64,000 nucleotides of DNA. Source: Elizabethkingia occulta (GTDB lineage: Bacteria > Bacteroidota > Bacteroidia > Flavobacteriales > Weeksellaceae). Within the stretch, counting starts at the first letter, position 1; each line of letters opens with the position of its first letter. Where the stretch lies: contig NZ_MAHX01000007.1 of the NCBI RefSeq assembly GCF_002023715.1, forward strand, positions 203,176 to 267,175, written 5' to 3'. Below are positions 32,521-49,831 of the stretch, piece by piece. Both the position numbers and the translations under genes were made by a program. Below the pieces are notes generated by a model. It searched no databases and was not told where the DNA came from. It saw nothing but the letters and a program-made list of their open reading frames with translations.

Positions 32521-33255
32521 ATGATAACAATAGAAAAATTATCCAAAGTATACCGAACAGAAGACGTACAGACTACGGCACTTAATCAGGTAGATCTCAA
32601 TATTAAAAAAGGAGAATTTCTGGCTATTATGGGACCTTCAGGGTGTGGCAAATCTACTTTACTTAATATTCTGGGTTTACTGGATTTTTCTACTTCAGGA
32701 TCTTACAGGTTCAATGATTTGGAAACAACAAGTTTATCTGAAAGAAAAAAATCAGATGTTAGAAAGCAAAATATAGGATTCATCTTTCAGAACTTTAATT
32801 TGATTGATGAACTAACGGTTTATGAAAATATTGAATTGCCATTGATCTATAATGGAGTTTCTTCTTCTGAAAGAAAGAAGAGAGTAGAAGAGATTATGGA
32901 GAAAATAAACATCAGACACCGTGCAAAACATTATCCGCAGCAACTTTCCGGAGGGCAGCAGCAAAGAGTAGCTGTAGCAAGAGCTCTGGTTACCAGACCC
33001 AAACTGATCCTTGCAGATGAGCCAACAGGAAATCTGGATAGTACCAACGGAAACGAGGTAATGAATCTTTTAGCTGAGCTTCACCGCGAGGGATCAACTA
33101 TTGTAATGGTGACTCACTCGTCTTACGATGCAAGCTTCTCTTCCCGTATTGTCAATATGAAAGACGGCGAAATCTTTAATGAAGAGCATACGACAAAAAG
33201 AACAGATGTTTTCGATAAAGCACAGCCAGGAGATTATGCTGTAACCGGAGAATAG
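32521..33255 (+). CDS. ABC transporter ATP-binding protein (LolD/MacB type)
   Basis: A 244-residue ABC ATPase of the LolD/MacB/FtsE lineage. MITIEKLSKVYRTEDVQTTALNQVDLNIKKGEF is the normal opening; Walker A is GPSGCGKST near residue 39, Q-loop FIFQNFNLID near 88, signature LSGGQQQRVAVARAL near 142 and Walker B LILADEPTGNLDS near 162, with the His switch in VMVTHSSYDA. All catalytic elements are present. The C-terminus extends about 15 residues past the usual fold. It is the only ATPase gene in the operon and so must serve the six permeases that follow, as homodimer with each permease dimer. Confidence 0.95.
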   Translation: MITIEKLSKVYRTEDVQTTALNQVDLNIKKGEFLAIMGPSGCGKSTLLNILGLLDFSTSGSYRFNDLETTSLSERKKSDVRKQNIGFIFQNFNLIDELTVYENIELPLIYNGVSSSERKKRVEEIMEKINIRHRAKHYPQQLSGGQQQRVAVARALVTRPKLILADEPTGNLDSTNGNEVMNLLAELHREGSTIVMVTHSSYDASFSSRIVNMKDGEIFNEEHTTKRTDVFDKAQPGDYAVTGE

Positions 33256-33382: not shown

Positions 33383-35800
33383 ATGCTCCGTAACTGGCTG
33401 AAAATAGCTTTTACCCATTATAAAAAGAACTGGCTTTCCACAGTCATTAATTTTTTTGGTTTGGCCATAGGACTTACCAGCTTTATGCTTATTCTGATGC
33501 ATTGGGAAGATGAAGAATCTTTTGAAAACTGGAATCCTAAAAAAGAGAATATTTATTTTTTTCAGGGTTATTATAAAAAGGATAATGTTTATGGTAATAA
33601 TACTTCATACCTGGTCGCTAAGCGCGCCAAAGACATCATACCAGAAATTGAAGATTATGTATTGATAAATGGTTCCGGATATGCTGGAATAGCAACTTCA
33701 GATAATAAATCTGTGTACATTGAAGGAGGGATGTCTGTATCACCATCTTTTTTTAAACTATTTCCTTTCAAAATTTTATCTGGAAATGGGAAAAATGCTT
33801 TACTTGAAACGAATTCTATAGCAATATCAAATACCGTTAGCCAAAAACTTTTTGGAACTACAAATGCCATCGGAAAAACTTTAACTTATGAGAATAATCA
33901 ACTTGTAGTAACAGCAGTTTATGAGTTGCCAAAAGGAAATACAGAAATTAATCCTGAATTTATATTTCTTTCAAAACAGTATGCAAATGCTGTAAAGGAT
34001 CCGGGAGACGGGTGGGGAAATAATAGTTATGGATGTTTCTTCCTGTTCAAAGACAATGCATCCACTGAAGCTGTACGTCAGAAGGTAGTAAAAGATATTT
34101 TTGAATATCGAGCGAAAATGTTTGGTGATAAAGGTATGAGTGCTGAAAAGTATTTGGAACTCTATGGGCCTAATAATGTAGAATTTACCCGATTGGATAA
34201 AATGAAATTGCATGCCAAAGCTTCCTGGTTTGGTGGTGGGGACTATAAGCTTATTCTTATTTTATTTAGTTTATCTGTATTGTTACTGCTGATGTCAGCC
34301 ATTAATTTCATTAATCTGAAAACCGCTCAGGCTTCACAACGGGCTAAAGAAATAGGCGTAAGAAAAGCCCTGGGAAGTAGCAAATCACAGCTGATTGGGC
34401 AATTTTTACTCGAAACCTTTATAATCACGTTTGCTGCTTATTTATTTTCATTAGCCCTTACAGAAGCTGCATTGCCATTTTTTGGTAAGTTTTTAAATAA
34501 AGAAATTCATTTTCAAAATGACTTTTATTTATACTCAATGGTTATTGTTATTGCGATTTCGTTAGTATCAGGGAGCATTCCGGCTTTATATCTGTCTAAC
34601 TTCAAAGCCATAGATACACTGAAAGGAAATTTTGCACGCAGCAAAAATGGTATTTGGCTCAGAAATTCAATTTTAGGACTTCAATTGGTTATTTCTTCAT
34701 TCTTTATTATCGGCAGCTTTATTATCAATAATCAGGTTACCTACATGATGAATAAAGATCTGGGCTTCGATGGGAATCAGTTATATACAATCAATTTTAA
34801 TCAGGATTCTAAAAAGCCATGGATGAAATATGAGCTTCTAAAATCCGAACTGAAAAAAATAGAAGGGGTCAAAAGTGTGACTTTTGGTGAAGCTTTACCA
34901 GGATATAATGGCCGTAATACTTCCAACGTAGACTGGCATAATGAATCGGTTGAGGCGCAGCATGGTTCTTTGGATTTTGGATTTTTAGAAGCTATGAAAG
35001 TAAAATTGCTTGCAGGTAGATTTCTTTCTCCAAAGTTATCATCGGATACTATTAATTCAGCTATTGTCAATGAAGCTTTTGTACGAAAATTTGGATGGAA
35101 AAATAATGAAGTTTTTAATCATCAGGTTGCACCGGGATTCGATACTATAAAATATAATATTGTAGGAATAGTTAAAGACTTTAATGTGTTTAATCCAAGA
35201 GCTGAAATAGAGCCTATGATATTTTTTCATTACAGAGAAACCGATTGGAAGCGTTATGACCTTAACAGAGTTATTTTAGGATTCGATCCAAATAATATGT
35301 TATCCACTCAGCAAAGAGTAAAATCCTATTGGGAGAAAAATATAGAGCCCGGTTATCCTTTTAACGGTGATTTCATCAATAAAAAATTTGCTAAAACCTT
35401 TGTGAAATACCAGAAACAGCAGACTCTTTTTAATATCTTAAATACAATGGTTTTAATAATAGCGCTACTGGGGCTTTTCGCTTTATCATCTTTAATGATT
35501 GAACAAAAACTGAAGGATGTCGCTATTAAAAAAGCATTGGGAGCATCAGATAGCACACTGATAAAAGATCTGACTAAGAAATTCCTTTGGATAACTCTAA
35601 TAGCTGTTTTAGTTAGTATTCCGATCAGCTACTACTTCATGAATGAATGGCTGAAAGACTTTGCTTATCGTATAGAGATGCCTTGGTGGCCATATATTCT
35701 GAGCTTGGTAATTCTGTTGTTACTGACATTTCTGGTGGTGAGTATAAAAGCATACCGCGCTACCAAAGTAGAGCTGGTAAAATACCTGAAATACGAATAA
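33383..35800 (+). CDS. FtsX/MacB-like ABC permease, array copy 1
   Basis: An 805-residue permease with the double FtsX layout: helix 1 at about 20-40, a large periplasmic MacB_PCD domain (45-285), helices near 289-309, 340-360 and 383-403, helix 5 near 430-450, a second periplasmic domain (455-680), and helices near 686-706, 737-757 and 770-790. Conserved cytoplasmic coupling motifs are NLKTAQASQRAKEIGVRKALGSS after helix 2 and EQKLKDVAIKKALGAS after helix 6. No ATPase domain is fused. With copy 2 it shares HW(E/Q)DEESxExWNP after helix 1, unlike copies 3-6. It probably drives a tripartite pump with the neighbouring ATPase, fusion protein and TolC-like channel. Confidence 0.92.
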   Translation: MLRNWLKIAFTHYKKNWLSTVINFFGLAIGLTSFMLILMHWEDEESFENWNPKKENIYFFQGYYKKDNVYGNNTSYLVAKRAKDIIPEIEDYVLINGSGYAGIATSDNKSVYIEGGMSVSPSFFKLFPFKILSGNGKNALLETNSIAISNTVSQKLFGTTNAIGKTLTYENNQLVVTAVYELPKGNTEINPEFIFLSKQYANAVKDPGDGWGNNSYGCFFLFKDNASTEAVRQKVVKDIFEYRAKMFGDKGMSAEKYLELYGPNNVEFTRLDKMKLHAKASWFGGGDYKLILILFSLSVLLLLMSAINFINLKTAQASQRAKEIGVRKALGSSKSQLIGQFLLETFIITFAAYLFSLALTEAALPFFGKFLNKEIHFQNDFYLYSMVIVIAISLVSGSIPALYLSNFKAIDTLKGNFARSKNGIWLRNSILGLQLVISSFFIIGSFIINNQVTYMMNKDLGFDGNQLYTINFNQDSKKPWMKYELLKSELKKIEGVKSVTFGEALPGYNGRNTSNVDWHNESVEAQHGSLDFGFLEAMKVKLLAGRFLSPKLSSDTINSAIVNEAFVRKFGWKNNEVFNHQVAPGFDTIKYNIVGIVKDFNVFNPRAEIEPMIFFHYRETDWKRYDLNRVILGFDPNNMLSTQQRVKSYWEKNIEPGYPFNGDFINKKFAKTFVKYQKQQTLFNILNTMVLIIALLGLFALSSLMIEQKLKDVAIKKALGASDSTLIKDLTKKFLWITLIAVLVSIPISYYFMNEWLKDFAYRIEMPWWPYILSLVILLLLTFLVVSIKAYRATKVELVKYLKYE

Positions 35801-35903
35801 TGCTAAGTACGAAATACGAAGTTAGAAGTTAGAATTACAAATTTAGAAATTAGAGGTTAGAGAGTTAACCATTTACAATTAATCTATTAACCATTAGGTA
35901 ATT
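35801..35903. repeat. Spacer repeat between permeases 1 and 2
   Basis: Begins CTAAGTACGAAATACGAAG, continues with GTTAGAAGTTAGAATTAC and ends in ATTAACCATTAGGTAATT just before the ATG. The ending recurs before permease 4 and, changed, before 5 and 6. Confidence 0.75.
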
Positions 35904-38318
35904 ATGTTAAAGAACTGGCTGAAAATAGCATTTACACAATACAAAAAGAACTGGCTTTCTACAGTAATCAATCTGTTTGGGTTAACGATTGGGCTTACTG
36001 GCTTTATGCTCATCCTGATGCACTGGCAGGATGAAGAATCATATGAAGTATGGAATCCCGGTAAAGAAAATATCTATTTTCTGGAAAACGGGATGGGGAA
36101 AAATTTTGGTATCTGGAGTTCTTCTACTCAGGCAGAAATGCGTTATGGAAAGGAAAAAGTAAGCGGTATTCAGGACTATCTTCTAATAAATCCTTTTCAA
36201 AATAATGAGCGTGTTAGTTTCGGTTCTAAGGTTTCCAATCCTGTAAAATATACAACATCAGACAGTTTTTTCAGATTTTTTCCTTTTAAAAAGCTTGCCG
36301 GTTCCTATAAAGATATTTTTAAAAATACTCATGTTGCTGCTATTTCTGCAGAAACAGCTCAACAGCTATTTGGTAATAATTATCAGGATGCTGTAGGTAA
36401 AACAATCGTATCCGACCAGAATAAATATGTTATTGCTGCCGTATATGAACTCCCAAAAGGAAATTCGGTCATTAAGCCAGGACTACTTGTAAGAGATGGG
36501 TTTCTGAACGGAAATGAAGAAAATTGGGGAGATTATAATTATGCAGGCTTTTTTATGATAAAGCCCAATGCGGATATCACAAAGGTAAATACAGATCTTA
36601 ATAAAATGCTTTACGACTACAAGGTTGCCAAGGATATGAAGATCATGAATAAAACAGTTCAGGAATATGAAGCTGCAATTGGTGGTAAAGCAGAGCTCTT
36701 TATCACAAGGCTGGACAGAATGAAACTCGAGGCCAAGGGTGGAGGTTTGGAAAAAGCAGATAAAAAGAATATTTATATACTGTTGGGACTTTCAGTTATC
36801 ATTGTATTATTATCTGCTATTAATTTTATTAATCTAAAGACAGCACAAGCCTCGCAGCGTGCGAAAGAAGTAGGTGTACGTCGTGTAATGGGTGGAACAA
36901 CCTGGCAGTTAACAGGTCAGTTTTTATTGGAGACATTACTTATATGCATGACTGCTTATTTGTTGGCAACAGCTTTTGCAGAAATACTATTGCCGGCTTA
37001 TAATAAATTTCTGGGTAAAGAGATCAAGTTATCTAATGCTAATGTCTTTATCTATTCACTTGTAATGTTGCTTATTACTAGTATAGTTTCAGGACTTATT
37101 CCGGCTGTTTATCTGGCGAATTTCAAACCGATTAATACGCTTAAAGGTAATTTTTCCAGAAGTAAACATGGTATATGGCTTAGAAACGGTATCCTGACAA
37201 TACAGCTTGTGATTTCGTCATTCTTTATTATATCAATATTAATTATCAATGCTCAGGTTAATCATATGCTGAATAAAAATCTGGGGTTCAATGGTGATCA
37301 GGTCATTAATATTGATTTTCTGAAACAAGTTGACAAACCCTATCAAAAATATGAATTGCTCAGACAGCAGCTTCCAAAAATAAAAGGTGTAGAAGGTGTT
37401 ACTTACACCAAGCAACGTATGGGAATGGGGAGTGCCGGAAATTCAAATGTTAACTATATGAACAAAAGTATTATGGCTAACCATGGATCTGTAGACCTTA
37501 ACTTTTTTAAATTTTTTGAAATAAAAATTGTAGAAGGCCGGGACTTCGATCCAAAATTATCTTCAGACACATTATCCTCTACAATTGTGAATCAGGCTTT
37601 TATCAAAGAAATGGGCTGGACTCCCAAAGAGGCTATAGGAAAAGAAGTACGTCCGGGATTTGATAGTATAAGATATAAAATTGTAGGTGTAGCACAGGAT
37701 TACAATCAGGAAAGTGTTGCCAATAAGGTAGCGTCTGTTATTTATTTCAACTATGGACGTAACTGGAATAAAAGTAATATCAATAATATTATGGTAAAGC
37801 TTTCCGGTGATAATATACCGGAAACCATAAGTAACATCCAGGATTACTGGCAGAAAGAAATAGAACCGGGGTATCCGTTTCAGTATCAGTTTCTTAATAA
37901 ACAATTTGCTAAAACATATGATAGTTACAAAAAACAGAGATTACTATTCAGTATTCTCAATGCTATGGTGCTTGTTGTAGCACTGTTAGGATTGTTTGCT
38001 TTATCTTCTTTAATGATTGATCAGAAGCTGAAAGATGTAGCCATCAAAAAAACATTGGGAGCATCGGATAGTATACTGATAAAAGATCTGACAAAAAGAT
38101 TTCTTTTGATTGCTACACTGGCAGTATTCTTAAGTATTCCATTGAGTTATTACTTTATGAATGAATGGCTGAAAGACTTTGCCTACCGGATTGAGATGCC
38201 GTGGTGGCCATATGTTATGAGTCTGGTAATCCTACTGTTGCTAACCTTCTTTGTTGTGAGTATTAAAGCATACCGTGCGACCAAAGTAGATTTGGTGAAG
38301 TATCTTAAATACGAATGA
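35904..38318 (+). CDS. FtsX/MacB-like ABC permease, array copy 2
   Basis: An 804-residue paralogue of copy 1 with the same eight-helix, two-periplasmic-domain layout. The first helix-loop (LTGFMLILMHWQDEESYEVWNPGKENIYF-like) is closest to copy 1, while the middle of the first periplasmic domain (about 60-270) is largely its own. Coupling motif 1 is NLKTAQASQRAKEVGVRRVMGG, with Arg-Val-Met in place of the usual Lys-Ala-Leu; coupling motif 2 (DQKLKDVAIKKTLGAS) is standard. The last 80 bases of coding sequence and the following spacer are nearly identical to those of copy 3. Frame is intact and codon use normal, so it is under selection and not a decaying duplicate. Confidence 0.92.
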   Translation: MLKNWLKIAFTQYKKNWLSTVINLFGLTIGLTGFMLILMHWQDEESYEVWNPGKENIYFLENGMGKNFGIWSSSTQAEMRYGKEKVSGIQDYLLINPFQNNERVSFGSKVSNPVKYTTSDSFFRFFPFKKLAGSYKDIFKNTHVAAISAETAQQLFGNNYQDAVGKTIVSDQNKYVIAAVYELPKGNSVIKPGLLVRDGFLNGNEENWGDYNYAGFFMIKPNADITKVNTDLNKMLYDYKVAKDMKIMNKTVQEYEAAIGGKAELFITRLDRMKLEAKGGGLEKADKKNIYILLGLSVIIVLLSAINFINLKTAQASQRAKEVGVRRVMGGTTWQLTGQFLLETLLICMTAYLLATAFAEILLPAYNKFLGKEIKLSNANVFIYSLVMLLITSIVSGLIPAVYLANFKPINTLKGNFSRSKHGIWLRNGILTIQLVISSFFIISILIINAQVNHMLNKNLGFNGDQVINIDFLKQVDKPYQKYELLRQQLPKIKGVEGVTYTKQRMGMGSAGNSNVNYMNKSIMANHGSVDLNFFKFFEIKIVEGRDFDPKLSSDTLSSTIVNQAFIKEMGWTPKEAIGKEVRPGFDSIRYKIVGVAQDYNQESVANKVASVIYFNYGRNWNKSNINNIMVKLSGDNIPETISNIQDYWQKEIEPGYPFQYQFLNKQFAKTYDSYKKQRLLFSILNAMVLVVALLGLFALSSLMIDQKLKDVAIKKTLGASDSILIKDLTKRFLLIATLAVFLSIPLSYYFMNEWLKDFAYRIEMPWWPYVMSLVILLLLTFFVVSIKAYRATKVDLVKYLKYE

Positions 38319-38440
38319 TAGTAAGTACGAGGTTAGAAGTTAGAATTACGAATTTAGAAATTAGAGGTTGGAAAATTAATCATTCATAATTGACCATTAC
38401 GAAATACGAAGTTAGAAAATTAACCATTAATAATTAACCA
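38319..38440. repeat. Spacer repeat between permeases 2 and 3
   Basis: Near-identical to the spacer after permease 3 for its first ~55 bases (GTAAGTACGA, GTTAGAAGTTAGAATTACGA). It then carries a second CGAAATACGAAGTTAGAA piece, and lacks the AGGTAATTATG leader that precedes the other copies. Confidence 0.75.
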
Positions 38441-40861
38441 TTGATACAGAACTGGCTAAAAATAGCATTTACGAACTACAAAAGAAACTGGGTTTCAACA
38501 CTAATTAATCTTTTAGGATTAACTGTTGGGTTTACTGTTTTCATTTTGATATTTCTAAACTGGCAGGACGAGAAAAGTTATGAAAGCTGGGTGCCGGGTA
38601 AGGAGAATATCTATTTGGTAGAAAATAATAATGCCATTTTTGGATATATGGCAGTATCAAGCTATCCAGAGTTATATGTTTCCAAAGAAAAGTTCAGTGA
38701 GATAGAAGATTATACTATAGCCGGTATTTGGAAAGGGAAATATAAACTAATTTATAAAGACAAATCTGCTTATGCTGAGGAGGCTAGCGCTATAGATTCC
38801 TATTTCGAATTCTTTCCTCATGAAGCAATAGCAGGAAGCTTTAAAAATGCTATTAGCGATGAAAATAAAATAGCTCTTTCCGAAAAAACAGCGAAGATGC
38901 TTTTCGGTACAGAATATAAAAACTGTATAGGTAAGGTAATAAAAAAAGATAGTGATAATAAATCGTATGTTGTAACGGCTGTATATAAGTATACGGATAA
39001 TAATAGTGTATTTAAATCCGATTATATTATTAAGACGCCGGGACTTGATAATGCTAATGGTTGGAGTAATTATAGCTATATAGGTTTTTTTAAAGTAAAA
39101 CCTGAAACTGATATCAAAAATCTGGAAAAAAAGCTTACAGATCAGATGGCTGTAGAGGAGAAAAAGAATTCTGAGAAATGGCGTGAAAAGTATGATGAAA
39201 AAGATAAAACACTCGTTTCTCTTGTTCCTTTAAATACCATGAAATTGGATGCAAAGAGTGAAGGAATTGAAAAAGGAGATAAAAAATCTATTCTAATCTT
39301 ATTAAGCCTGTCAGCTCTTATTCTTACACTATCCGGAATTAATCTGATTAATCTGAAAACAGCTCAGGCTTCTCAACGAGCAAAAGAAGTAGGAGTAAGA
39401 AAAGCCATAGGAGATTCCAGATTCGGAGTTATTCTTCAGTTTTTATTCGAGAATGCAATAGTCTGTATTGTAGCCTATTTATTGTCTTTTGTTGTAATAG
39501 AATTTTTACTTCCCTCTTACAATAAATTTTTAGGAAAAGAAATAAGTATGGATAATACCAATGTTATAGTCTATTCAGCGCTTTTATTGCTTCTGTTTAT
39601 ATTTTTATCCGGTATTATACCAGCTCTTTATTTATCGAACTTCCAACCTATTAATACACTAAAGGGAAATTTCTCCAGAAGTAAGCATGGTGTATGGCTA
39701 AGAAACTCTATCCTTACACTGCAGTTGATTATTTCTTCATTCTTTATTGTCTGTTCTTTTATAATTCATAGCCAGGTTCAGTATATGTTAAATAAGGATC
39801 TGGGATTCAAGGGAGATCAGGTTGTTCAGATAGATTTTAAAAAAACCAATTACAGAGACGATTATAATTATAAAAAATACCTGAGACTAAAGGCGGAAAT
39901 ATCTAAAATATCCGGAGTTCAGGAGATTACAGGATCTGTTCTTTCATTAGGTAATGGTGTAAGAAATTCATCATCTGTGAAAAATGTTCTGGACACTACC
40001 AAGAATATTAATAATGTAGGAAATGGTGGGATAGATTATAATTATTTTCAGTTTTACAAAATAAAATTTGCAAGCGGAAGAAATATTGATATTCATAAAA
40101 CTTCAGATACGATTTCCGGAGCGGTAGCCAACGAAACATTTGTGAAAATGATGGGATGGAACAATCAACAGGCCTTAGGAAAAGAAGTATATCCAGGCTG
40201 GGATGGCAAGAAAAAATATAAAATTCTCGGTGTTGTTAAAGACTTCTATGTAACAGGTGTAGACAAGCCTATAGATCCAATATTATTCTATAACTACGAC
40301 AGAACCTATATTAAAAATAGCCTGACAGGTTTGCAAATCAAACTTTCAGGTAATGACATTAACGGGACTATAAAACGTATTGAAGAATTCTGGAATACAA
40401 AAGCAGAACCCGGATATCCATTCGAGTATACATTTGTAGACAAATCTTTTGCAAGAACATTTACTAAATATGAAAAACAAAAAATTCTTTTTTCTATTTT
40501 AAATTCTGTGGTTTTGGTTGTCGCATTATCAGGACTCTTTGCCTTATCCAGCCTGATGATTGATCAGAAATTAAAAGAAGTGGCTATCAAAAAAACAATG
40601 GGAGCTTCGGATAGCATATTGATAAGAGATCTTACGAAGAGATACTTATGGCTGACAGCATTAGCAGTACTAATTAGTATACCAATTAGTTATTACTTTA
40701 TGAATGAATGGCTGAAAGACTTTGCTTATCGGATTGAGATGCCCTGGTGGCCGTATGTTCTGAGTTTTGTAATCCTACTGTTGCTAACCTTCTTTGTTGT
40801 GAGTATTAAAGCATACCGTGCGACCAAAGTAGATTTGGTGAAGTATCTGAAATACGAATGA
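38441..40861 (+). CDS. FtsX/MacB-like ABC permease, array copy 3 (TTG start)
   Basis: An 806-residue copy with the same layout. It has no ATG at the conserved position: the alignment of IQNWLKIAF with LRNWLKIAF of the other copies requires initiation at the TTG at 38441, so translation is probably weaker. From here on the copies carry FLNWQDEKSYExWVP after helix 1 instead of HWxDEES. Coupling motif 1 reads NLKTAQASQRAKEVGVRKAIGDS; motif 2 is DQKLKEVAIKKTMGAS with Glu and Met changes. The second periplasmic domain shows the TGSVLSLGNGVRNSSS segment shared in form with copies 4-6, placing this copy between the two subgroups. Confidence 0.9.
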   Translation: MIQNWLKIAFTNYKRNWVSTLINLLGLTVGFTVFILIFLNWQDEKSYESWVPGKENIYLVENNNAIFGYMAVSSYPELYVSKEKFSEIEDYTIAGIWKGKYKLIYKDKSAYAEEASAIDSYFEFFPHEAIAGSFKNAISDENKIALSEKTAKMLFGTEYKNCIGKVIKKDSDNKSYVVTAVYKYTDNNSVFKSDYIIKTPGLDNANGWSNYSYIGFFKVKPETDIKNLEKKLTDQMAVEEKKNSEKWREKYDEKDKTLVSLVPLNTMKLDAKSEGIEKGDKKSILILLSLSALILTLSGINLINLKTAQASQRAKEVGVRKAIGDSRFGVILQFLFENAIVCIVAYLLSFVVIEFLLPSYNKFLGKEISMDNTNVIVYSALLLLLFIFLSGIIPALYLSNFQPINTLKGNFSRSKHGVWLRNSILTLQLIISSFFIVCSFIIHSQVQYMLNKDLGFKGDQVVQIDFKKTNYRDDYNYKKYLRLKAEISKISGVQEITGSVLSLGNGVRNSSSVKNVLDTTKNINNVGNGGIDYNYFQFYKIKFASGRNIDIHKTSDTISGAVANETFVKMMGWNNQQALGKEVYPGWDGKKKYKILGVVKDFYVTGVDKPIDPILFYNYDRTYIKNSLTGLQIKLSGNDINGTIKRIEEFWNTKAEPGYPFEYTFVDKSFARTFTKYEKQKILFSILNSVVLVVALSGLFALSSLMIDQKLKEVAIKKTMGASDSILIRDLTKRYLWLTALAVLISIPISYYFMNEWLKDFAYRIEMPWWPYVLSFVILLLLTFFVVSIKAYRATKVDLVKYLKYE

Positions 40862-40956
40862 TAGTAAGTACGAAGTTAGAAGTTAGAATTACGAATTTAG
40901 AATTTAGAGGTTAGAAAATTAACGACTTATAATTAATCATTAACCATTAGGTAATT
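40862..40956. repeat. Spacer repeat between permeases 3 and 4
   Basis: GTAAGTACGAAGTTAGAAGTTAGAAT-type start matching the previous spacer almost base for base, ending with CATTAACCATTAGGTAATT before the ATG at 40957, as before permease 2. Confidence 0.75.
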
Positions 40957-43386
40957 ATGTTTAAAAACTGGATTAAAATAGCATTTAGCAATTATAAAAA
41001 GAACTGGCTTACTACCCTTATCAACCTTTTGGGGCTGTCTGTGGGGCTAACTGTATTCCTGTTGGTATTCCTGAATTGGCAGGACGAAAAATCCTATGAA
41101 AAATGGGTGCCTGAAGGAGATAATGTGTATTATGTCGAAAGAGTTTTTGATCACAAAGATTTTAATGCTGTATGCAGCTATCCTTTTCTGGAAGTGCCAT
41201 CAAAAACATTCCCGGAGATTCAGAATTTTTCAGTGATTAATTATTGGGCAAACAATAAATCCCGACTTTTAACGGACGGTCATTCCAGTTATAATAGCTC
41301 TGCTGAAGTATCAGAAGGTTTCTTCAAGGTTCTTCCTTTTCCTCTCGTAGCGGGTAGCTATAATAATCTTTTTGTGGATGAAAATTCAATAGCATTATCC
41401 GAAGATGTTGCAAAACAGCTTTTCGGGGATAGCTACAAAGAGAGTATTGGAAAGACCGTTACAAAAGATGAAAGCGGTAAAAAAGCTGTTGTACAGGCTA
41501 TTTACAAACTTCCTGCAGAAGAAGAGAATACTATTTTCAGACCCGGCTTCGTCGTAAGAAATTCTAATATAGATTCTAATAAAAATGTATGGAGTAATAA
41601 CAGCTTCTTTGGTTTTTTCCGTGTAAAGCCAGGTACAAATATTTCGGAACTGGAGAAAAAACTATCTGCAATACAGACAAGACAGCAAAATATTGAGCTT
41701 AAACAGTCAGGCTGGCCAGAAATGAAAAGTCCAATAGAAATACGCCTGGTAAACATAAAAAAAATGAGGCTGGATGCTAAAAGTGGTGGGCTTGAAGGTA
41801 CAGACAAAAAATCAATCTTGATTTTGCTGTCCTTATCAGGGCTTATTATGATACTTTCTGCTATTAATTTTATCAATCTCAATACAGCTCAGGCATCACA
41901 AAGAGCAAAAGAAGTAGGCATTCGAAAATCATTTGGGAGTTCCAAAGGACAATTGGTTATACAATTCTTACTGGAGACCTTTATAATTTATATCACTGCA
42001 TTCTTTATATCACTGATTCTTCTGGAGCTTTTATTACCTCTTTACGGTAAATTTCTCAACAAGATAATAAAGATAGGTGATCCTGTTGTTTATCTGTATA
42101 CAGTATTAATTGTCTCTGTATTTGCATTTATTTCCGGAATTGTTCCTGCAATATATCTTTCCGGTTTCAAGCCAATTCAAACACTTAAAGGGAACTTTTC
42201 CAGAAGTAAACATGGTATATGGTTACGTAATTCTATTTTGACCTTGCAAATTATTATTTCTTCATTTTTTATTATATCCTCTTTCGTTGTCTATAAGCAG
42301 GTTGATCATATGATGCAGAAAGATTTAGGCTTTCATGGTGAACAGGTTTACCAGCTTAATTTTAATAAAATATCTTGGGAAAATAATTATAATATGAAGA
42401 AGTACCAGTTGTATAGTGAGAAGATAAAACACTTTCCTGGTGTCATAGATGTTACAGGGTCTTCTCAGACTTTAGGAAACGGTGTTAACAGTACAACAGG
42501 CATTAAGTATAAAAGAGATTCTACAAAGTCCGTGGATGTTGGTGTAGGTGCTATAGATCTGAACTTTACAAAGTTTTATAAAATTAAATTCCTTTCGGGA
42601 AGAGATTTTAATCCAAAATTAACTACAGATACAACAAAGGCAATTGTAGTAAATGAAGCCTTTGTCCAAAAAATAGGATGGAATAATCAGGAAGCCATTG
42701 GTAAAGAAATGACAAGTAATACGGATAGTAAAGCCCGAAACATGGTCATAATCGGGGTTGTAAAGGATATGAATTTTGCTGATGTACAGTATAAAATTGA
42801 CCCGATAATGTTTTTTAATTACGATAGGTACTGGACCAGAAATAATCTAATCAGTTTACAAATCAAATTATCCGGTGAAAATATCAATGAAAATCTGACC
42901 AGAATCAAAAAATATTGGGAAACAGAAGTAGAACCGGGATATCCGTTCCGAGGAGAATTTGTCAATAAACAGTTTGCCAGAACCTTTGAGAAGTATGAAA
43001 AACAGCGCACTTTGTTTTCGATTCTGAATGCTATCGTTCTGTTAGTAGCTCTTTTAGGACTGTTTGCACTATCCAGCTTAATGATAGAACAAAAGCTGAA
43101 GGATGTTGCCATTAAGAAAACATTAGGTGCATCAGACAGTATACTGATAAAGGATCTGACTAAGAAATTCCTTTGGATAACACTGATAGCTGTTTTAATT
43201 AGTATTCCGGTTAGTTACTACTTTATGAATGAATGGTTGAAAGGTTTTGCTTATCGTATAGAAATGCCGTGGTGGCCATATATTTTAAGCTTGGCAATCC
43301 TTTTATTGCTGACAATTCTTGTGGTAAGTATCAAAGCCTACAGGGCAACCAAAGTAGAACTGATAAAATATTTGAAATACGAATAA
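40957..43386 (+). CDS. FtsX/MacB-like ABC permease, array copy 4
   Basis: An 809-residue copy, first of the 4-5-6 subgroup, which is marked by NLNTAQASQRAKE (Asn for Lys) in coupling motif 1; here it continues VGIRKSFGSSKGQL. Four extra residues relative to copy 1 lie in the periplasmic domains. The second periplasmic domain has TGSSQTLGNGVNSTTG followed by YKRDSTKS, shared in pattern with copies 5 and 6. Coupling motif 2 is EQKLKDVAIKKTLGAS and the C-terminus ends RATKVELIKYLKYE, one Ile substitution from copies 1, 5 and 6. All eight membrane segments are predicted. The periplasmic parts, which should contact the substrate or the fusion protein, are the most divergent. Confidence 0.92.
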   Translation: MFKNWIKIAFSNYKKNWLTTLINLLGLSVGLTVFLLVFLNWQDEKSYEKWVPEGDNVYYVERVFDHKDFNAVCSYPFLEVPSKTFPEIQNFSVINYWANNKSRLLTDGHSSYNSSAEVSEGFFKVLPFPLVAGSYNNLFVDENSIALSEDVAKQLFGDSYKESIGKTVTKDESGKKAVVQAIYKLPAEEENTIFRPGFVVRNSNIDSNKNVWSNNSFFGFFRVKPGTNISELEKKLSAIQTRQQNIELKQSGWPEMKSPIEIRLVNIKKMRLDAKSGGLEGTDKKSILILLSLSGLIMILSAINFINLNTAQASQRAKEVGIRKSFGSSKGQLVIQFLLETFIIYITAFFISLILLELLLPLYGKFLNKIIKIGDPVVYLYTVLIVSVFAFISGIVPAIYLSGFKPIQTLKGNFSRSKHGIWLRNSILTLQIIISSFFIISSFVVYKQVDHMMQKDLGFHGEQVYQLNFNKISWENNYNMKKYQLYSEKIKHFPGVIDVTGSSQTLGNGVNSTTGIKYKRDSTKSVDVGVGAIDLNFTKFYKIKFLSGRDFNPKLTTDTTKAIVVNEAFVQKIGWNNQEAIGKEMTSNTDSKARNMVIIGVVKDMNFADVQYKIDPIMFFNYDRYWTRNNLISLQIKLSGENINENLTRIKKYWETEVEPGYPFRGEFVNKQFARTFEKYEKQRTLFSILNAIVLLVALLGLFALSSLMIEQKLKDVAIKKTLGASDSILIKDLTKKFLWITLIAVLISIPVSYYFMNEWLKGFAYRIEMPWWPYILSLAILLLLTILVVSIKAYRATKVELIKYLKYE

Positions 43387-43474
43387 TGCTAAGTACGAAA
43401 TTAGAATTACGAAGTTAGAAGTTTGAATTACTAAAATTTACCATTGACAATTAATCATTAACAATTAGCTAATT
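43387..43474. repeat. Spacer repeat between permeases 4 and 5
   Basis: Shortest spacer: CTAAGTACGAAATTAGAATTACGAAG, then TTGACAATTAATCATTAACAATTAGCTAATT before the ATG (shown here in parts: TTGACAATTAATCATTAAC and AATTAGCTAATT). The second part is repeated before permease 6. Confidence 0.7.
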
Positions 43475-45907
43475 ATGTTACGCAACTGGATAAAAATAGC
43501 ATTTACAAATTATAAAAAAAATTGGCTGACAAGCCTTATTAATCTTTTAGGTTTATCTGTCGGGTTGGTGATATTTTTGTTAGTATTTCTAAATTGGCAG
43601 GATGAGAAATCTTATGAGAAATGGGTTCCGAATGGGGAAAATGTATATTTAATAGAATTACAAAACGGTAAGGATAGCTATGTTTCTCAGGTCAATTATC
43701 CACTTTTGTATACTTCTCCTAAGACATTTCCGGAAATAGAGACATATACAGTAGTCAATATGTGGATGGATGTTAAAAACAAACTAACCACAGAAGGACA
43801 TTCTGTTTATACTACTCCCATTTTTGCAACCGAAAATTTCTTTAAAGTACTACAGTTTCCCAAACTAGCTGGGAGCTATGAAAATATTCTTTTAGACAAT
43901 ACATCTATAGCTCTTTCCGAAGATACTGCCAAGGCTTTATTTGGTAAAGATTACCTTCATAGTATCGGGAAAACAGTGGTGCTGGATAATGAAGGCAGCA
44001 AATATGTTGTACATGCAATTTATAAGAACCCCGAAGAATCCGAAAATACAATATTCCGGGGCGGGTTTGTAGTCCGTGATGCTTTTGTTAACGACAGCAA
44101 AGAGAGCTGGACCAACTATAGTTACTATGGTTTCTTTAAAGTAAAGCCTAATACGGATTTAGCTAAACTGGAAGAAAAGCTCTCCAAATGGGATGATGAT
44201 CATGAAAGAATTGAGAATCGAAAAAATGGATGGGGAGATAACGGAGATCATATCAAAGCTCATTTGACTAATATCAGAAATATGAAGCTCGATGCTAAAG
44301 GATGGGGAGTGATGAAGGGCGATAAAAAATCTATTATTATTCTGATGTCATTATCAGGCCTTATTTTAGTTCTTTCCGGAATTAATTTCATTAATCTCAA
44401 TACAGCGCAAGCTTCACAACGTGCTAAAGAAGTAGGTGTAAGAAAGGCTTTGGGAAGTTCTAAAAGAAAAATAATAGTTCAGTTTTTGTTAGAAACCCTT
44501 ATCATGTATGCCACAGCATTTGTGATCTCTATGGTTGTACTGGAATTGCTTTTACCAATCTACGGAAAGTATTTGGGGAAAGAGATAAAAATACAGGGAT
44601 TTCAGGTCTATTTATATGCAGTTTTTATTGTCCTCATTTTCACCCTTGTTTCCGGAATTATTCCAGCGCTTTATCTTTCAGGATTTAAGCCTATTCAGAC
44701 GCTGAAAGGAAATTTTGCAGGCAGTAAGCATGGTATATGGTTACGAAATCTTATTTTGTCATTACAGCTTATTATTTCATCATTTTTTATTATTTCATCA
44801 TTGATTATTTATAAACAGGTAAACTATATGATGGATAAAGATTTAGGTTTTAATGGGGATCAGGTATTTGAGATCAGCTTTAAAAAGACAAATTTTAAAG
44901 ATGGCAACTATAATCAGAGAAAATATGAATTGTACAGAGACCAGATAAAGCATTTTCCCGGAGTATTGGATATTACCGGTTCATCACAAAGTATTGGTAA
45001 TGGTCTTAGGAATTTTGCAGGTGCAAAAGATAAAAGGGACTCTACAAAAACCACATCTGCCGGAATCGGAGCTATAGATTTTAATTATTTCAGTTTTTAT
45101 AAACTAAGATTGGTTGCAGGCAGAGATATTAATCCCAAATTGGCTACAGATACAGTGAATGGACTCGTAGTTAATGAAGCTTTTGTAAAAAGTATGGGCT
45201 GGAAACCTGCAGAAGCTATTGGTAAAGAAATATCAAGCGGACTATCTGAAAAGAGTAATAATTTGTTGATTATAGGAGTGGTGAAGGATTTCCATTATGG
45301 TGGAGTAAAAAATGAAATTTCTCCGGTCATGTTCTTTAATTACCAAAGGTACTGGACTAAAAACCAAATGAATAATCTGCAGATTAAACTTTCAGGGGAC
45401 AATATCTCTCAAAATATTCAACGTATCAAAAAATATTGGGAAACTCAGGTAGAGCCAGGCTATCCTTTTGAAGGTAATTTTGTCAATAAAAATTTCGCCA
45501 AGACTTTTGACAAATATAAAAAGCAACGCCTATTATTCTCTATTCTAAATTCTGTTGTTTTGGTTGTTGCCCTTTTAGGACTATTTGCATTGTCCAGTCT
45601 GATTATAGAACAAAAACTCAAAGATGTAGCGATTAAAAAGACATTGGGAGCATCAGACGGAGTACTGATAAAAGATCTGACAAAGAAATTTCTTTGGATC
45701 ACAGCAATAGCGGTATTAATAAGTATACCGATAAGTTATTATTTTATGAACGAATGGCTGAAAGATTTTGCCTACCGCATTGAAATGCCATGGTGGCCTT
45801 ATATTGTGAGTTTAGCTATTCTTTTGCTGCTAACTTTTCTTGTCGTAAGTATTAAAGCTTACAGAGCAACAAAAGTAGAACTGGTAAAATACCTGAAATA
45901 CGAATGA
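43475..45907 (+). CDS. FtsX/MacB-like ABC permease, array copy 5
   Basis: An 810-residue copy, closest to copy 6: both share KLEEKLSKWDDD in the first periplasmic domain, KTxFxDxNYNQRKYE in the second, and similar leaders. Coupling motif 1 is NLNTAQASQRAKEVGVRKALGSSKRKI and motif 2 EQKLKDVAIKKTLGASDG. The helix-5 segment LSLQLIISSFFIISSLIIYKQ is conserved. The first periplasmic domain (45-280) keeps the fold-defining hydrophobics but differs from copy 6 in many exposed positions. Reading frame is intact. Function as for the other copies; what each copy adds is unknown. Confidence 0.92.
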   Translation: MLRNWIKIAFTNYKKNWLTSLINLLGLSVGLVIFLLVFLNWQDEKSYEKWVPNGENVYLIELQNGKDSYVSQVNYPLLYTSPKTFPEIETYTVVNMWMDVKNKLTTEGHSVYTTPIFATENFFKVLQFPKLAGSYENILLDNTSIALSEDTAKALFGKDYLHSIGKTVVLDNEGSKYVVHAIYKNPEESENTIFRGGFVVRDAFVNDSKESWTNYSYYGFFKVKPNTDLAKLEEKLSKWDDDHERIENRKNGWGDNGDHIKAHLTNIRNMKLDAKGWGVMKGDKKSIIILMSLSGLILVLSGINFINLNTAQASQRAKEVGVRKALGSSKRKIIVQFLLETLIMYATAFVISMVVLELLLPIYGKYLGKEIKIQGFQVYLYAVFIVLIFTLVSGIIPALYLSGFKPIQTLKGNFAGSKHGIWLRNLILSLQLIISSFFIISSLIIYKQVNYMMDKDLGFNGDQVFEISFKKTNFKDGNYNQRKYELYRDQIKHFPGVLDITGSSQSIGNGLRNFAGAKDKRDSTKTTSAGIGAIDFNYFSFYKLRLVAGRDINPKLATDTVNGLVVNEAFVKSMGWKPAEAIGKEISSGLSEKSNNLLIIGVVKDFHYGGVKNEISPVMFFNYQRYWTKNQMNNLQIKLSGDNISQNIQRIKKYWETQVEPGYPFEGNFVNKNFAKTFDKYKKQRLLFSILNSVVLVVALLGLFALSSLIIEQKLKDVAIKKTLGASDGVLIKDLTKKFLWITAIAVLISIPISYYFMNEWLKDFAYRIEMPWWPYIVSLAILLLLTFLVVSIKAYRATKVELVKYLKYE

Positions 45908-45995
45908 TACGGATTATGAAGTACGAATTACGAAGTTAGAGGTTCGAAATTAGAAAGTTAACCATTGACAATTAATCATTAACAATTAGCGGATT
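45908..45995. repeat. Spacer repeat between permeases 5 and 6
   Basis: GAAGTACGAATTACGAAGTT-type repeat, then TTGACAATTAATCATTAAC and a leader with GCGGATT before the ATG, nearly the same as before permease 5. Confidence 0.7.
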
Positions 45996-48428
45996 ATGTT
46001 ACACAACTGGATTAAAATAGCATTTAGCAATTATTATAAAAATTGGCTGACAACAATTATTAACCTTTTAGGATTATCTATCGGGTTAACAATTTTCTTG
46101 CTGGTATTTCTGAATTGGCAGGATGAGAAATCCTATGAGAAATGGGTGCCGAATAAAGAGAATATTTATTTTGTGGAACTACAGACCAGTAAAAATAATT
46201 ATGCCTCCAATGTCAATTATCCATTGTTACATACAGCACCGAAAATGTTTTCAGAGATAGAGAATTATTCCGTAGTTGCTAATATAGGAGAAGAGGATAA
46301 AACTAAACTGATAGCTGATGGGCGCTCTGTCTATACTACCCCAATTGCCGCCAGTGAAGACTTTTTTAAAGTAATACAGCTTCCTAAAGTAGCAGGTAGT
46401 TATGATAACATTTTAGTAGACAGACATTCCGCAGCACTTTCTGAAGATACGGCCAAGGCTTTATTTGGTAAAGATTATCTGAACAGTATCGGCAAAGTTG
46501 TGGTGGCAGATAACGATGGAAGTAAATATGTGGTGCAAGCAATTTACAAGAATCCTGCTGATGCTGAAAATACAATATTCAGAAGTGGTTTTATAGTTAG
46601 ACAATCCAATATTGATAATAATGAGAATTGGACCAATTATAGTTTTTATGGCTTTTTCAAAGTGAAACCCAATACAGATATCACTAAGCTTGAAGAAAAA
46701 TTGTCCAAATGGGATGACGATAACGAAAGAGCAGACAGAAGTAAATACGGTTGGGCAGATGACAGAGATCCTATTAAAGTTCATCTGACTAATGTCCGTG
46801 ATATGAAACTTAAAGCCAAAGGTTCGGGAATTATGAAAGGTGATCAGAAATCTATTATAATTCTGATGACTTTAGCGGGGCTTATTTTAGTTCTTTCCGG
46901 TATTAATTTTATCAATCTCAATACAGCGCAGGCTTCCCAAAGAGCCAAGGAGGTAGGAGTGCGAAAAGCCTTGGGAAGCTCGAAAGGAAAATTAGTAATG
47001 CAATTTTTATTGGAGGCTTTTATTGTTTATATCACTGCATTTATTATTTCTCTGGTTTTATTAGAATTGTTATTGCCTGTATACGGCAGGTTTCTGAAGA
47101 AAGAAATCAGGGTGGAAGGGATTCATGTATATCTTTATACTTTCCTCATTATAATCACCTTTGCTTTCTTCTCCGGAATAATTCCGGCATTGTATCTTTC
47201 CAATTTTAAGCCTATTCAAACGCTTAAAGGAAACTTTGCCCGAAGCAGGCATGGAATCTGGCTGCGCAATGCGATCTTATCATTACAACTGATTATTTCC
47301 TCTTTTTTTATTATTTCTTCATTGATTATATACACTCAGGTAAATTATATGATGAATAAAGACTTAGGCTTTAGTGGAGATCAGGTTTTTCAGATAAATT
47401 TTAAAAAAACCAATTTTATAGATGAAAATTACAATCAGAGGAAATACGAACGCTACAGAGATAAAATAAAGCACTTCCCCGGAGTAATAGACATTACAGG
47501 ATCATCACATACGATGGGTGGTGGTATTACCAGCTCATCGGGTGCTAAATATAAAAGAGACTCTACAAAATCAACATCTGCGGGAATTGGGGCCATTGAC
47601 TTTAATTATTTTAAATTTTATAAAATAAAGTTTATTGTAGGTCGCGAGATGAATCCTAAGATGACGACAGATACCGCACGCGGATTAATTGTAAATGAGT
47701 CTTTTGTGAAGAAGATGAACTGGAGCCCATCAGAGGCTATAGGTAAAGAAATTTCCAGTGGATTGGATGATAAGAGCAACAATATGCTTATTATAGGTGT
47801 TGTAAAGAACTTTCATTACGGAAGTGTACAATATGATGTTTTCCCAATGATGTTCTTTAATTATCAAAGGTACTGGACTAAGAACCAAATGAACAATCTA
47901 CAGATAAAACTTTCCCCAGAGAATATCACAGAAAATACAGAGCGCATAAAAAAATACTGGGAAACAGAAGTAGAACCAGGATATCCATTCGAAGGAAATT
48001 TTGTGAACAAGAATTTTGCCCGGACTTTTGACAAATTTAAAAAACAACGATTGTTATTTTCGATTCTCAATTCTGTAGTATTATCTGTAGCACTTCTGGG
48101 ATTATTTGCATTATCCAGTTTGATGATAGAGCAAAAATTGAAAGATGTAGCTATTAAAAAGACATTGGGAGCATCTGATGTTATATTGATAAGAGACCTG
48201 ACCCGAAAATTTCTTTGGATTACTACAGTGGCGGTGTTTATCAGTATTCCGTTTAGTTATTATTTTATGAACGAATGGCTGAAAGAATTTGTGTACCGTA
48301 TCGACATGCCTTGGTGGCCCTATATTTTAAGCTTAGTAATCCTCTTACTGCTGACATTCCTGGTGACAAGTATCAAAGCCTACAGAGCTACCAAAGTAGA
48401 ACTGGTAAAGTACCTGAAATACGAATGA
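45996..48428 (+). CDS. FtsX/MacB-like ABC permease, array copy 6
   Basis: An 810-residue copy, last of the array and closest to copy 5. It departs from the others in the otherwise fixed C-terminal block: EWLKEFVYRIDMPWWPY instead of EWLKDFAYRIEMPWWPY, and LVTSIKAYRATK instead of VVSIKAYRATK. Coupling motifs are NLNTAQASQRAKEVGVRKALGSSKGKL and EQKLKDVAIKKTLGASDV. Helix pattern and both periplasmic domains are complete. That the last copy has escaped the homogenisation seen elsewhere fits conversion acting between inner copies. It is followed by a heptamer repeat tract and the TolC-type gene. Confidence 0.92.
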   Translation: MLHNWIKIAFSNYYKNWLTTIINLLGLSIGLTIFLLVFLNWQDEKSYEKWVPNKENIYFVELQTSKNNYASNVNYPLLHTAPKMFSEIENYSVVANIGEEDKTKLIADGRSVYTTPIAASEDFFKVIQLPKVAGSYDNILVDRHSAALSEDTAKALFGKDYLNSIGKVVVADNDGSKYVVQAIYKNPADAENTIFRSGFIVRQSNIDNNENWTNYSFYGFFKVKPNTDITKLEEKLSKWDDDNERADRSKYGWADDRDPIKVHLTNVRDMKLKAKGSGIMKGDQKSIIILMTLAGLILVLSGINFINLNTAQASQRAKEVGVRKALGSSKGKLVMQFLLEAFIVYITAFIISLVLLELLLPVYGRFLKKEIRVEGIHVYLYTFLIIITFAFFSGIIPALYLSNFKPIQTLKGNFARSRHGIWLRNAILSLQLIISSFFIISSLIIYTQVNYMMNKDLGFSGDQVFQINFKKTNFIDENYNQRKYERYRDKIKHFPGVIDITGSSHTMGGGITSSSGAKYKRDSTKSTSAGIGAIDFNYFKFYKIKFIVGREMNPKMTTDTARGLIVNESFVKKMNWSPSEAIGKEISSGLDDKSNNMLIIGVVKNFHYGSVQYDVFPMMFFNYQRYWTKNQMNNLQIKLSPENITENTERIKKYWETEVEPGYPFEGNFVNKNFARTFDKFKKQRLLFSILNSVVLSVALLGLFALSSLMIEQKLKDVAIKKTLGASDVILIRDLTRKFLWITTVAVFISIPFSYYFMNEWLKEFVYRIDMPWWPYILSLVILLLLTFLVTSIKAYRATKVELVKYLKYE

Positions 48429-48532: not shown

Positions 48533-49831
48533 ATGTTTAAAAAACTTATTTTCCTTAGTATATCAGCCTTTATGTTTTCTCAGCAGACCGAAGAATGGGA
48601 CCTGCAAAAAACAGTAGATTATGCTATAAGTAAGCACCCTACAGTGCAGCAAAGCATTCTGAAGGTAGACCAGCGTAAACAGGAAATAACAGCATCCAAA
48701 GGAATGCTGCTGCCTTCCGTTTCAGCTAATACCAGCCAGAATTATAGCTTTGGTTCAACTATTAATCCCGGAACCAACCAAAGAGAAGCCCTGAATGTAG
48801 GAACGACACAATTCTCGGCAACAGCTAATTGGGAATTATTCAACTGGAGAAATTTCATGAATATTTCACTAAGCAAAATGAATAAAGAAAGTTCCGATTA
48901 CCGCCTGAAAGCAGTGCAAAATGATATTGCACTCAATGTTATACAATTGTTCTTTCAGTATCAGAATGACAAGGCATGGTTCGGAGTATTGAAAACTCAG
49001 CTGGATGGAGTAGAAGAACAAATTAAAAGAACAGAAAAAGAAGTGGAAATAGGGAACAGACCTAAAAGTGATATCTATGATATAAAAGCCAACATGGGAA
49101 CCTTGCAGGAACAATGGGTATCAGCTAAAAATCAGAAAGAAATTTCCAAAAACAATCTGCTCAATGCATTAGCCATTACTTCGGACAATGTAGATTTCGT
49201 TCAGAATACAACGGATACATCTTCTGTTCTGGCCTTTTCAGACGAAAACTTTGTAAAAGAAATGCTGGAAAAGAATCCGGCATATCTGGCTGCTGCAAAA
49301 GAAATCCAGGTTTCTGCCGAGAAGATCAGAGTAGAGAGAAGCGGTTACCTACCAACATTGAACGGGCAGTATTCGTGGTCTACTTTTTATAGTAAAGTAC
49401 TGGGAGGCAATCAGCCTACAACAGCATTTTCAGATCAATTTAACCAAAACAAAAATCAACAGGTGTACTTTAATCTAAGTATTCCTGTTTTCAACAAGCT
49501 GCAGGTAAAATCCAATGTAGAAATTGCAAAGCTTAATAAAATTAATGCCGATCTGGAAAAAGAAAAAACAGTCAGTAATCTGGTTGCAGCATTAAAGTCC
49601 ATTAAGATTCAGTACCAGAACTCAGAAGAGAAATATAGACTTTTGCAGCAAAATTTTGAAAACCAAAAACTTTCTTTTGACAAATCAGAAGAAAAATACA
49701 AAGAAGGACTAATGGACGCTTATACCTTTTTCGTAGTTCGTAATAACTGGCTTCAGGCTAATTATAACCTGATTAAAAGCCGTTATGATGTAATGTTGCA
49801 GGAAGAATTATGGAAAATTTATAATAAATAA
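48533..49831 (+). CDS. TolC-like outer-membrane efflux protein
   Basis: A 432-residue protein from the ATG at 48533; the frame is open to a TTG at 48509 but the signal peptide (FKKLIFLSISAFMFSQ) starts only at the ATG. The body shows two TolC-type repeats: WDLQKTVDYAISKHPTVQQSILKVDQRKQEITASKGMLLPSVSA, long helices with KTEKEVEIGNRPKSDIYDIKANMGTLQEQW, a second KNPAYLAAAKEIQVSAEKIRVERSGYLPTLNGQYSW and YKEGLMDAYTFFVVRNNWLQANYNLIKSRYDVMLQ at the end (quoted here as landmarks of the OEP fold). It provides the outer-membrane exit duct for the six-permease system and closes the operon. Confidence 0.92.
   Translation: MFKKLIFLSISAFMFSQQTEEWDLQKTVDYAISKHPTVQQSILKVDQRKQEITASKGMLLPSVSANTSQNYSFGSTINPGTNQREALNVGTTQFSATANWELFNWRNFMNISLSKMNKESSDYRLKAVQNDIALNVIQLFFQYQNDKAWFGVLKTQLDGVEEQIKRTEKEVEIGNRPKSDIYDIKANMGTLQEQWVSAKNQKEISKNNLLNALAITSDNVDFVQNTTDTSSVLAFSDENFVKEMLEKNPAYLAAAKEIQVSAEKIRVERSGYLPTLNGQYSWSTFYSKVLGGNQPTTAFSDQFNQNKNQQVYFNLSIPVFNKLQVKSNVEIAKLNKINADLEKEKTVSNLVAALKSIKIQYQNSEEKYRLLQQNFENQKLSFDKSEEKYKEGLMDAYTFFVVRNNWLQANYNLIKSRYDVMLQEELWKIYNK

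Follow-up and report, generated by a model that had tools for sequence, protein, structure and literature searches.

Among described transporters, the locus considered here is best compared with members of the type VII ATP-binding cassette (ABC) superfamily (MacB/FtsX/LolCE). YbbAP of Escherichia coli combines a separate ATPase with a single-chain pseudo-dimer of ~800 residues that has two periplasmic domains, and it forms a 2:1:1 complex with TesA (PMC12646458). In Firmicutes, intramembrane-sensing kinases partner permeases of the FtsX superfamily, and Bce-like modules were described as restricted to that phylum with one exception, according to the available portion of a 2011 study (PMC3023708). 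Large paralogous families are also on record, with 28 and 33 annotated ADOP copies in two Dyadobacter genomes in the part of the source at hand (PMC11573002). Here we describe an operon with six consecutive paralogous permeases of this superfamily in a 64,000-nucleotide stretch of the Elizabethkingia occulta genome (contig NZ_MAHX01000007.1, positions 203,176 to 267,175), hereafter the window, following up an original prediction made from its sequence alone. The features of the operon and its divergent regulatory genes, in window coordinates, are as follows.

26152..27471, minus strand: histidine kinase with two N-terminal helices joined by a loop of ~8 residues (intramembrane-sensing layout)
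27471..28817, minus strand: NtrC-type response regulator with receiver, sigma54-activation and Fis-type domains
28821..28857, no strand assigned: predicted operator immediately 5' of the regulator start codon, a pair of TGTYC-N6-GNACA palindromes set 21 bp apart
28922..28936, plus strand: predicted sigma54-type -24/-12 box, TGGCATATTTGTCGT, 64 bp past the operator pair, with its -12 part off consensus
28965..30209, plus strand: HlyD/MacA-type periplasmic adaptor, ATG at 28965
30211..31623, plus strand: DUF4932 protein, putatively metalloprotease-like, carrying the motifs HEFNH and NES
31634..32455, plus strand: DUF2807 protein, between adaptor and ATPase
32521..33255, plus strand: ABC ATPase, the sole ATPase of the operon, with an ABC_tran match
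33383..35800, plus strand: permease P1, 805 codons, orthologous to the 'a' permease found in other genera
35904..38318, plus strand: permease P2, 804 codons
38441..40861, plus strand: permease P3, 806 codons, TTG start, its periplasmic domains being orthologues of those of the 'b' permease in other genera
40957..43386, plus strand: permease P4, 809 codons
43475..45907, plus strand: permease P5, 810 codons
45996..48428, plus strand: permease P6, 810 codons, structure modelled
48533..49831, plus strand: TolC-type outer-membrane channel, ATG at 48533

As originally predicted, the six permease frames are consecutive and intact, span 804-810 codons each and share the plus strand from 33383 to 48428, none of them broken; the single adaptor, ATPase and TolC-type genes that frame them lie where they had been placed, and a profile scan agrees with their assignment. 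The original prediction was silent on the DUF4932 and DUF2807 genes in the gap between adaptor and ATPase and on the divergent regulator/kinase pair at 26152-28817. Ten of the 14 MacB_PCD matches in the genome fall in the six array genes and the remaining four in frames of only 400-427 codons; therefore no second 800-codon permease was found in this genome.

We read the locus as encoding a sigma54-controlled, stress-induced pump of the MacAB-TolC type with interchangeable permease heads, a reading that we hold to have slightly better than an even chance and in which we infer the formation of the complex, the sharing of the ATPase, the transport, the sensing and the cargo. The divergent regulator of the sigma54 type and the short-loop kinase would switch on the operon, and two ATPase subunits would clamp whichever permease is present. 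ATP-driven movement of the stalk would then squeeze periplasmic or membrane-extracted cargo through the adaptor and TolC, with the diverged periplasmic domains setting the cargo and the C-terminal membrane block kept alike because a fit to one ATPase would be required. Less certainly, the kinase may sense envelope damage inside the membrane, the cargoes may be amphipathic molecules that act on the envelope, for example antimicrobial peptides or lipids, and the metalloprotease-like protein may serve as a helper, as may two outer-membrane barrels. The adaptor and channel point to export, and the presence of a sensor kinase, together with an operon in the window in which no biosynthesis gene is evident, argues for clearance of damaging compounds over export of a dedicated product. 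If true, a single energised core that takes as many as seven interchangeable heads would show how the range of expelled compounds can be widened without new motors or ducts, and related genomes would provide a natural series of 1, 2, 3, 5, 6 and 7 heads for mapping specificity to single periplasmic domains.

The architecture of the permeases is central to this reading. P1, P3 and P6, the three scanned, each contain two MacB_PCD and two FtsX stretches above the Pfam cut-offs. By hydropathy, P2 and P3 have eight helices, and P1, P4, P5 and P6 show nine segments, one helix being read as two overlapping ones. An AlphaFold2 model of P6 (mean pLDDT 80.9, pTM 0.68) has eight long helices, a MacB-like fold and fold matches that include YbbP, BceB and FtsX. 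With two MacB periplasmic domains and a predicted eight helices, every chain is likely to be a complete pseudo-dimer that needs no partner. This bears on the earlier suggestion that the copies pair in different combinations around the ATPase to give many pumps. The alike C-terminal blocks would permit similar contacts in such pairs; however, with two FtsX modules and two periplasmic domains per chain, a pair would bring four modules together, which sets it apart from the solved relatives matched, and pairing is not needed, since the model of a chain matches the whole of single-chain YbbP and BceB. Mixed pairing is the least probable of the explanations that we have weighed.

P2 to P6 share 49-53% identity with P1. 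Over 11 tabulated pairs among one genome's P1-P6, identity is 82-90% in residues 681-805, 60-90% in residues 1-42, 32-69% in periplasmic domain 1 and 38-76% in domain 2 (the N-termini of G3_X and G15_b were cut to the first NW-type motif in this block comparison, as was done where needed in the set of a and b permeases described below). The description of nearly fixed ends around diverged periplasmic domains thus stands for the C-terminal block and only partly for the N-terminal one.

The array is an expansion, at the level of the genus Elizabethkingia, of an operon whose permeases usually number one or two. It is found in four of six Elizabethkingia genomes, with six copies in the present genome and in G005, five in G001 (P3 absent) and seven in G003, in which the extra copy lies between P5 and P6; no array was found in G002 and G004, which are smaller, fragmented assemblies. 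At least one such permease occurs in 113 of the 320 genomes of the family, in a survey that scored three candidates per genome and in which counts above three are lower bounds. Seventy-five named loci were gathered around the adaptor, which served as the search query, with a view of at most 10 kb on each side. The array can be followed up to TolC in 63 of them, with one permease in 29, two in 32 and three in 2; the other 12 views do not reach TolC (L024 shows three of seven copies, and L025 none). The expectation of one or two permeases per operon therefore holds within this family (61 of the 63 full-view loci) but not across the phylum, as runs of four to seven occur in 5 of 60 other Bacteroidota genomes sampled. 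These runs also rule out the idea that an array of six is unique.

Orthologues hold their array position across the Elizabethkingia genomes, where same-position orthologues are 88-94% identical and the best other paralogues 47-77%. In trees of the periplasmic domains, P1 groups with the 'a' permeases found in other genera and P3 with their 'b' permeases, and P4-P6 stand beside the b side. By the Nei-Gojobori method, the ratio of nonsynonymous to synonymous substitution rates (dN/dS) over 17 orthologue pairs covering the six positions is 0.040-0.096 in the membrane parts and 0.050-0.137 in the periplasmic parts, and most paralogue pairs are near saturation at silent differences. Purifying selection acts on the copies at each of the six positions, and neutral evolution of five of them, a possibility raised in the original prediction, is excluded for the copies compared in these pairs. 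Recent duplication or drift is ruled out by the dN/dS values and the near-saturated silent sites. The ready gain and loss of tandem copies (one extra in G003, one missing in G001) would suit redundant copies kept for dosage or by drift, with no separate roles; but orthologues keep their position, and the silent sites of paralogues approach saturation while the dN/dS of orthologues stays at 0.04-0.14, so that we consider redundancy very improbable. No positive selection on the periplasmic domains was detected between orthologues in the dN/dS of the 17 pairs. Given the low dN/dS and the lack of adaptive evolution between these species, the divergence of the periplasmic domains is old and now fixed, in keeping with separate, stable roles. 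The earlier alternative that each permease has its own substrate gains from this, as distinct, conserved periplasmic domains fit different substrates.

Several observations on individual loci may be added. In G001 (E. miricola GTC_862), phage-like genes split the operon between the DUF4932 and DUF2807 genes (L003:8373-13701 and L019:8377-15601), and the adaptor and permeases lie on two contigs. In G127, taken as Chryseobacterium piperi (L020, L021), a two-permease operon is nearer to Elizabethkingia than to other Chryseobacterium, with 91% identity to Elizabethkingia in the regulator, 93% in the ATPase and 86% in TolC; this much closer relationship suggests horizontal transfer of the entire unit. 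A GAAGTTA heptamer repeat has 16 matches in the window, all of them in the seven spacers that flank the permeases (33256-48532); as array-specific elements these repeats were rejected, since 19 of the 29 matches in the genome lie outside the array. Soonwooa spacers carry a different short repeat. A gene with a weak likeness to DUF2268 zinc proteases follows TolC in the three other array genomes (L002:6473-7768, L004:4724-6019 and L006:5527-6828) and is missing in the window between TolC and the next gene; the L002 copy, the one scanned, falls just below the cut-off.

The reading of the locus as a sigma54-controlled pump with interchangeable heads also draws on its regulatory region. The regulator is present in all 75 loci and the kinase in 74. 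The operator pair was found in all 75 (51 distinct sequences) and nowhere else in the 1,556,362 bases of those loci. With a looser pair pattern allowing 5-6 bp between the palindromes, TGG[CT]A occurs 62-65 bp past the pair in 70 of the 75 loci (63 bp in 45, 64 bp in 22, 65 bp in 2 and 62 bp in 1); in L031, a copy of the G15 array, the box is at 64 bp. The consensus of these 70 loci, TGGCAY-N5-TTGTGTA, has the spacing of sigma54 promoters, with a T where the usual sigma54 promoter consensus has a C. The box in the window was found only via the fixed distance to the operator pair. The genome also contains rpoN, so that an NtrC-type activator, an operator pair, a -24/-12 box and the sigma factor gene, the sequence hallmarks of a sigma54-dependent operon, are all present.

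This arrangement extends beyond the family. In G020, from another family, the box lies 63 bp from the pair. In G333, from another order, and in G367 and G355, from another class, a TGGCAC box lies 53 bp from a pair. In G362 an exact site and a degraded one are accompanied by TGGCAC-N4-TTGC at 52 bp, and G354 has one exact site with TGGCAC at 61 bp. The pair, with at most one mismatch, occurs in 6 of 31 genomes; the reversed-pattern control gave one match, in G009, and none in the genome studied here. That genome has three pairs, ahead of the array operon, of a gene for a 694-residue outer-membrane barrel with a 230-residue partner and of a gene for a 789-residue barrel, and allowing up to three mismatches in six genomes recovered the same sites. 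In G001 and G005 a pair precedes a gene for a 713-residue barrel. At the barrel genes the distance to the box is 63-65 bp at all nine sites measured, and the -12 parts are poor. This fixed operator-to-promoter architecture, with a spacing about one helical turn shorter in distant relatives, would mark a directly testable sigma54 stress circuit with links to outer-membrane barrel genes.

Between regulator and adaptor, and in the direction of the regulator, a YhcG/DUF1016-type nuclease gene is found in 15 of the 75 loci as judged by protein starts, including L008 (17028-18113, the only copy run on Pfam), L027, L029, L032, L034 and L041. In L052, L060 and L071, inspection by eye places an ATPase-like protein in its position.

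The kinase of the window has helices at residues 5-23 and 32-50 by hydropathy, with ~8 residues between them. This layout is alike in the eight relatives shown, out to another class, and a crude count finds two hydrophobic segments in 68 of 74 kinases. Such a short-loop kinase, which accompanies the operon in 74 of the 75 loci, would also be expected if the permeases exported no cargo and were sensors or mechanical levers, passing signals to the kinase or powering enzymes in the periplasm in the style of FtsEX or YbbAP-TesA, with the DUF4932 protein as the enzyme. The presence of YbbP, BceB and FtsX among the fold matches and the recurrence of DUF4932-type genes in the operons of relatives speak for that possibility. 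However, the adaptor in 75 of 75 loci (as the search query) and a TolC-type gene in 63 of 75 point to an exit duct, the 12 loci with no visible TolC-type gene being those whose views are cut or show at most three array genes; moreover, the blast label finds the DUF4932 gene in only 10 of 75 loci, although a second DUF4932 type escapes this label. We regard a purely sensory or mechanical role as distinctly unlikely.

The second DUF4932 type encodes 485 residues (L007:6230-7687, L008:11954-13411 and other loci), with a weak match to the starch-binding model CBM_20 and an HEFGH motif; the DUF4932 motif rows were picked by an HExxH-type pattern, so that the presence of the motif in them is by construction. 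In the G013 operon, an aspartyl-protease-like gene (L007:7709-8575) and a GLPGLI-family gene (L007:16843-17664) lie between the permeases and TolC.

Each permease might instead export one self-made product, a peptide, lipid or lipoprotein-like molecule, as DarBCD does for darobactin. DarBCD likewise consists of a permease, an adaptor and a separate ATPase of the same general kind; DarC and DarD are the best NCBIfam models for the adaptor and the ATPase, and DarB is second for the permeases. In addition, GG-leader-like peptides are encoded near a barrel gene of the putative regulon in G001. However, all three Dar models score below their equivalog cut-offs (131.0, 93.6 and 105.7 of 700 bits for P1, P3 and P6, 179.7 of 450 for the adaptor and 286.7 of 375 for the ATPase), and the operon of the window, which is what the scan covered, contains no radical-SAM or precursor gene and no evident biosynthesis gene. 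The leader-like peptides, moreover, belong to one regulon locus of one genome (L016:8838-9346, downstream of the 713-residue barrel gene with the operator pair); they are 80 and 81 residues long with a GG-ended leader-like start, and neither has a Pfam or NCBIfam match. Dedicated export is, in our judgement, unlikely.

If a pump with interchangeable heads requires a C-terminal block fitted to one ATPase, exchange of ends between copies might maintain it. Residues 681-805 of P3 are 82-86% identical to those of P2, P4 and P6 versus 70-74% to the orthologues G13_c and G15_b, whereas in the periplasmic domains P3 shares 52-66% identity with these two orthologues versus 34-50% with P2, P4 and P6. 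Of 63 positions diagnostic for a or b permeases, residues 43-680 of P3 hold 44, with 39 b-type and one a-type, and residues 681-805 hold 11, with six a-type and four b-type. The silent-site run test identified a P2-P3 tract at codons 774-801 (global P 0.007) and a b-c tract in G013 (P 0.0047). The a/b set comprised 109 rows (74 a, 34 b and 1 unclear) and 32 genomes with both types, after leaving out the duplicates L024, L025, L026 and L031 and permeases outside 760-860 residues or without a stop; 34 chosen rows were used for the trees. The seventh permease of G003 (L006:10811-13279) is a-like, and its last codons resemble P5 at silent sites, with a run-test P of 0.106.

Several results weigh against the pump reading as a whole. 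At the promoter, the box in the window reads TCGT at -12, off consensus; 5 of the 75 loci have no box at the set distance; a plain scan of the window for the sigma54 consensus gave no excess (30 matches versus 36 expected); and with as many as three mismatches allowed, the control with the reversed pattern yields one match per strand in this genome and in G001. As to the motor, gene context is what suggests that one ATPase serves all six permeases, and the runs of G333, G367 and G355 have another ATPase gene close to their far end, so that the one-ATPase economy is no rule. As to the shared block, the silent-run test stays above 0.05 in the other four of six arrays, and for the C-terminal block a placement of P3 in the b group is not rejected by the approximately unbiased test (p 0.19). 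In addition, none of the blocks shows same-genome excess similarity in the 32 non-Elizabethkingia genomes with both types (permutation 524 to 2157 of 5000), and homogenisation to suit the ATPase is therefore not general. Gene conversion as a general homogeniser of the membrane blocks is ruled out outside Elizabethkingia; inside the genus, mosaic residues, tree conflict and the run tests lend it partial support. Overall, ends appear to be exchanged on occasion, and a general homogenising drive is not supported.

Arrays are also found elsewhere in the phylum. Matches at an E value of 1e-50 occur in 12 of 61 Bacteroidota genomes, the present one included. Outside this genome the runs number seven permeases in G333, five in G367, four in G355, G368 and G378, three in G380 and G383 and two in G362 and G354, counting matches at 1e-50 or better only, so that true runs may be longer. 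Regulator, kinase, adaptor and ATPase genes adjoin the run in G333, G367 and G355; in the stretches examined from G368 and G378 no ATPase was found. In a quick tree the permeases of Flavobacteriales group together, and because G333 and G368 show separate splits, such arrays probably arose more than once.

Comparison with the described systems places the locus within the type VII superfamily, given the Pfam models found twice per chain, the ABC_tran ATPase and the fold matches of P6. YbbAP shares the single-chain pseudo-dimer of ~800 residues, the two periplasmic domains and the separate ATPase; however, YbbP has an extra helix pair joining its halves (ten helices in all) and works with TesA (PMC12646458), whereas the present permeases have eight helices by hydropathy and the P6 model and are encoded with an adaptor and a TolC-type gene. 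The ADOP family (TIGR03434) is similar in length (~800 residues), in its duplicated FtsX modules and in forming large paralogous families, but P1, P3 and P6 score 215.0, 207.6 and 228.8 bits against a cut-off of 622.3. To our knowledge, ADOP genes are orphans without a nearby ATPase, whereas here the ATPase is in the operon.

A sigma54 link to FtsX-like permeases in Bacteroidia is not new. The accessible part of a 2025 computational survey reports that the predicted sigma54 targets of Bacteroidia are enriched in COG0577 permeases, and claims the first such evidence (PMC12316311). That part names no regulator, operator, kinase or array, which are here laid out with fixed spacing. In searches limited to open-licence papers, we found no description of the operator pair, its fixed spacing, the kinase or the multi-head array.

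Bce modules (BceRSAB) resemble this locus in having a two-helix kinase with a very short loop, encoded beside a single-chain FtsX-superfamily permease and an ATPase. Bce modules differ in the ten helices and single large extracellular domain of BceB and in their OmpR-type regulator, as against the eight helices, two periplasmic domains and NtrC-type regulator found here, to which the adaptor and TolC are added. Sensing by the kinase via the permeases may be suggested by analogy only. A wider proposal, which we offer tentatively and consider doubtful, is that the locus represents a so far undescribed Bacteroidota counterpart of the Bce module. In it, a kinase and a sigma54 activator would run a plural-headed extruder of the MacAB-TolC type; each permease would recognise its own envelope-damaging molecule, report it to the kinase and pass it to the shared motor and duct, and the addition of heads would bring new specificities.

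In gene content the locus resembles MacAB-TolC itself, with MacB_PCD and FtsX modules, a MacA-like adaptor, a TolC-type channel and a MacB-like ATPase encoded together. The permeases are nevertheless not MacB proper, in which the ATPase is joined at the N-terminus to one permease unit of four helices; P1, P3 and P6 reach 31.8-43.1 bits with NF007826 versus 966. Unlike MacAB-TolC, the operon has a separate ATPase gene, two permease units fused in each 800-residue chain and six alternative permeases next to one set of partners.

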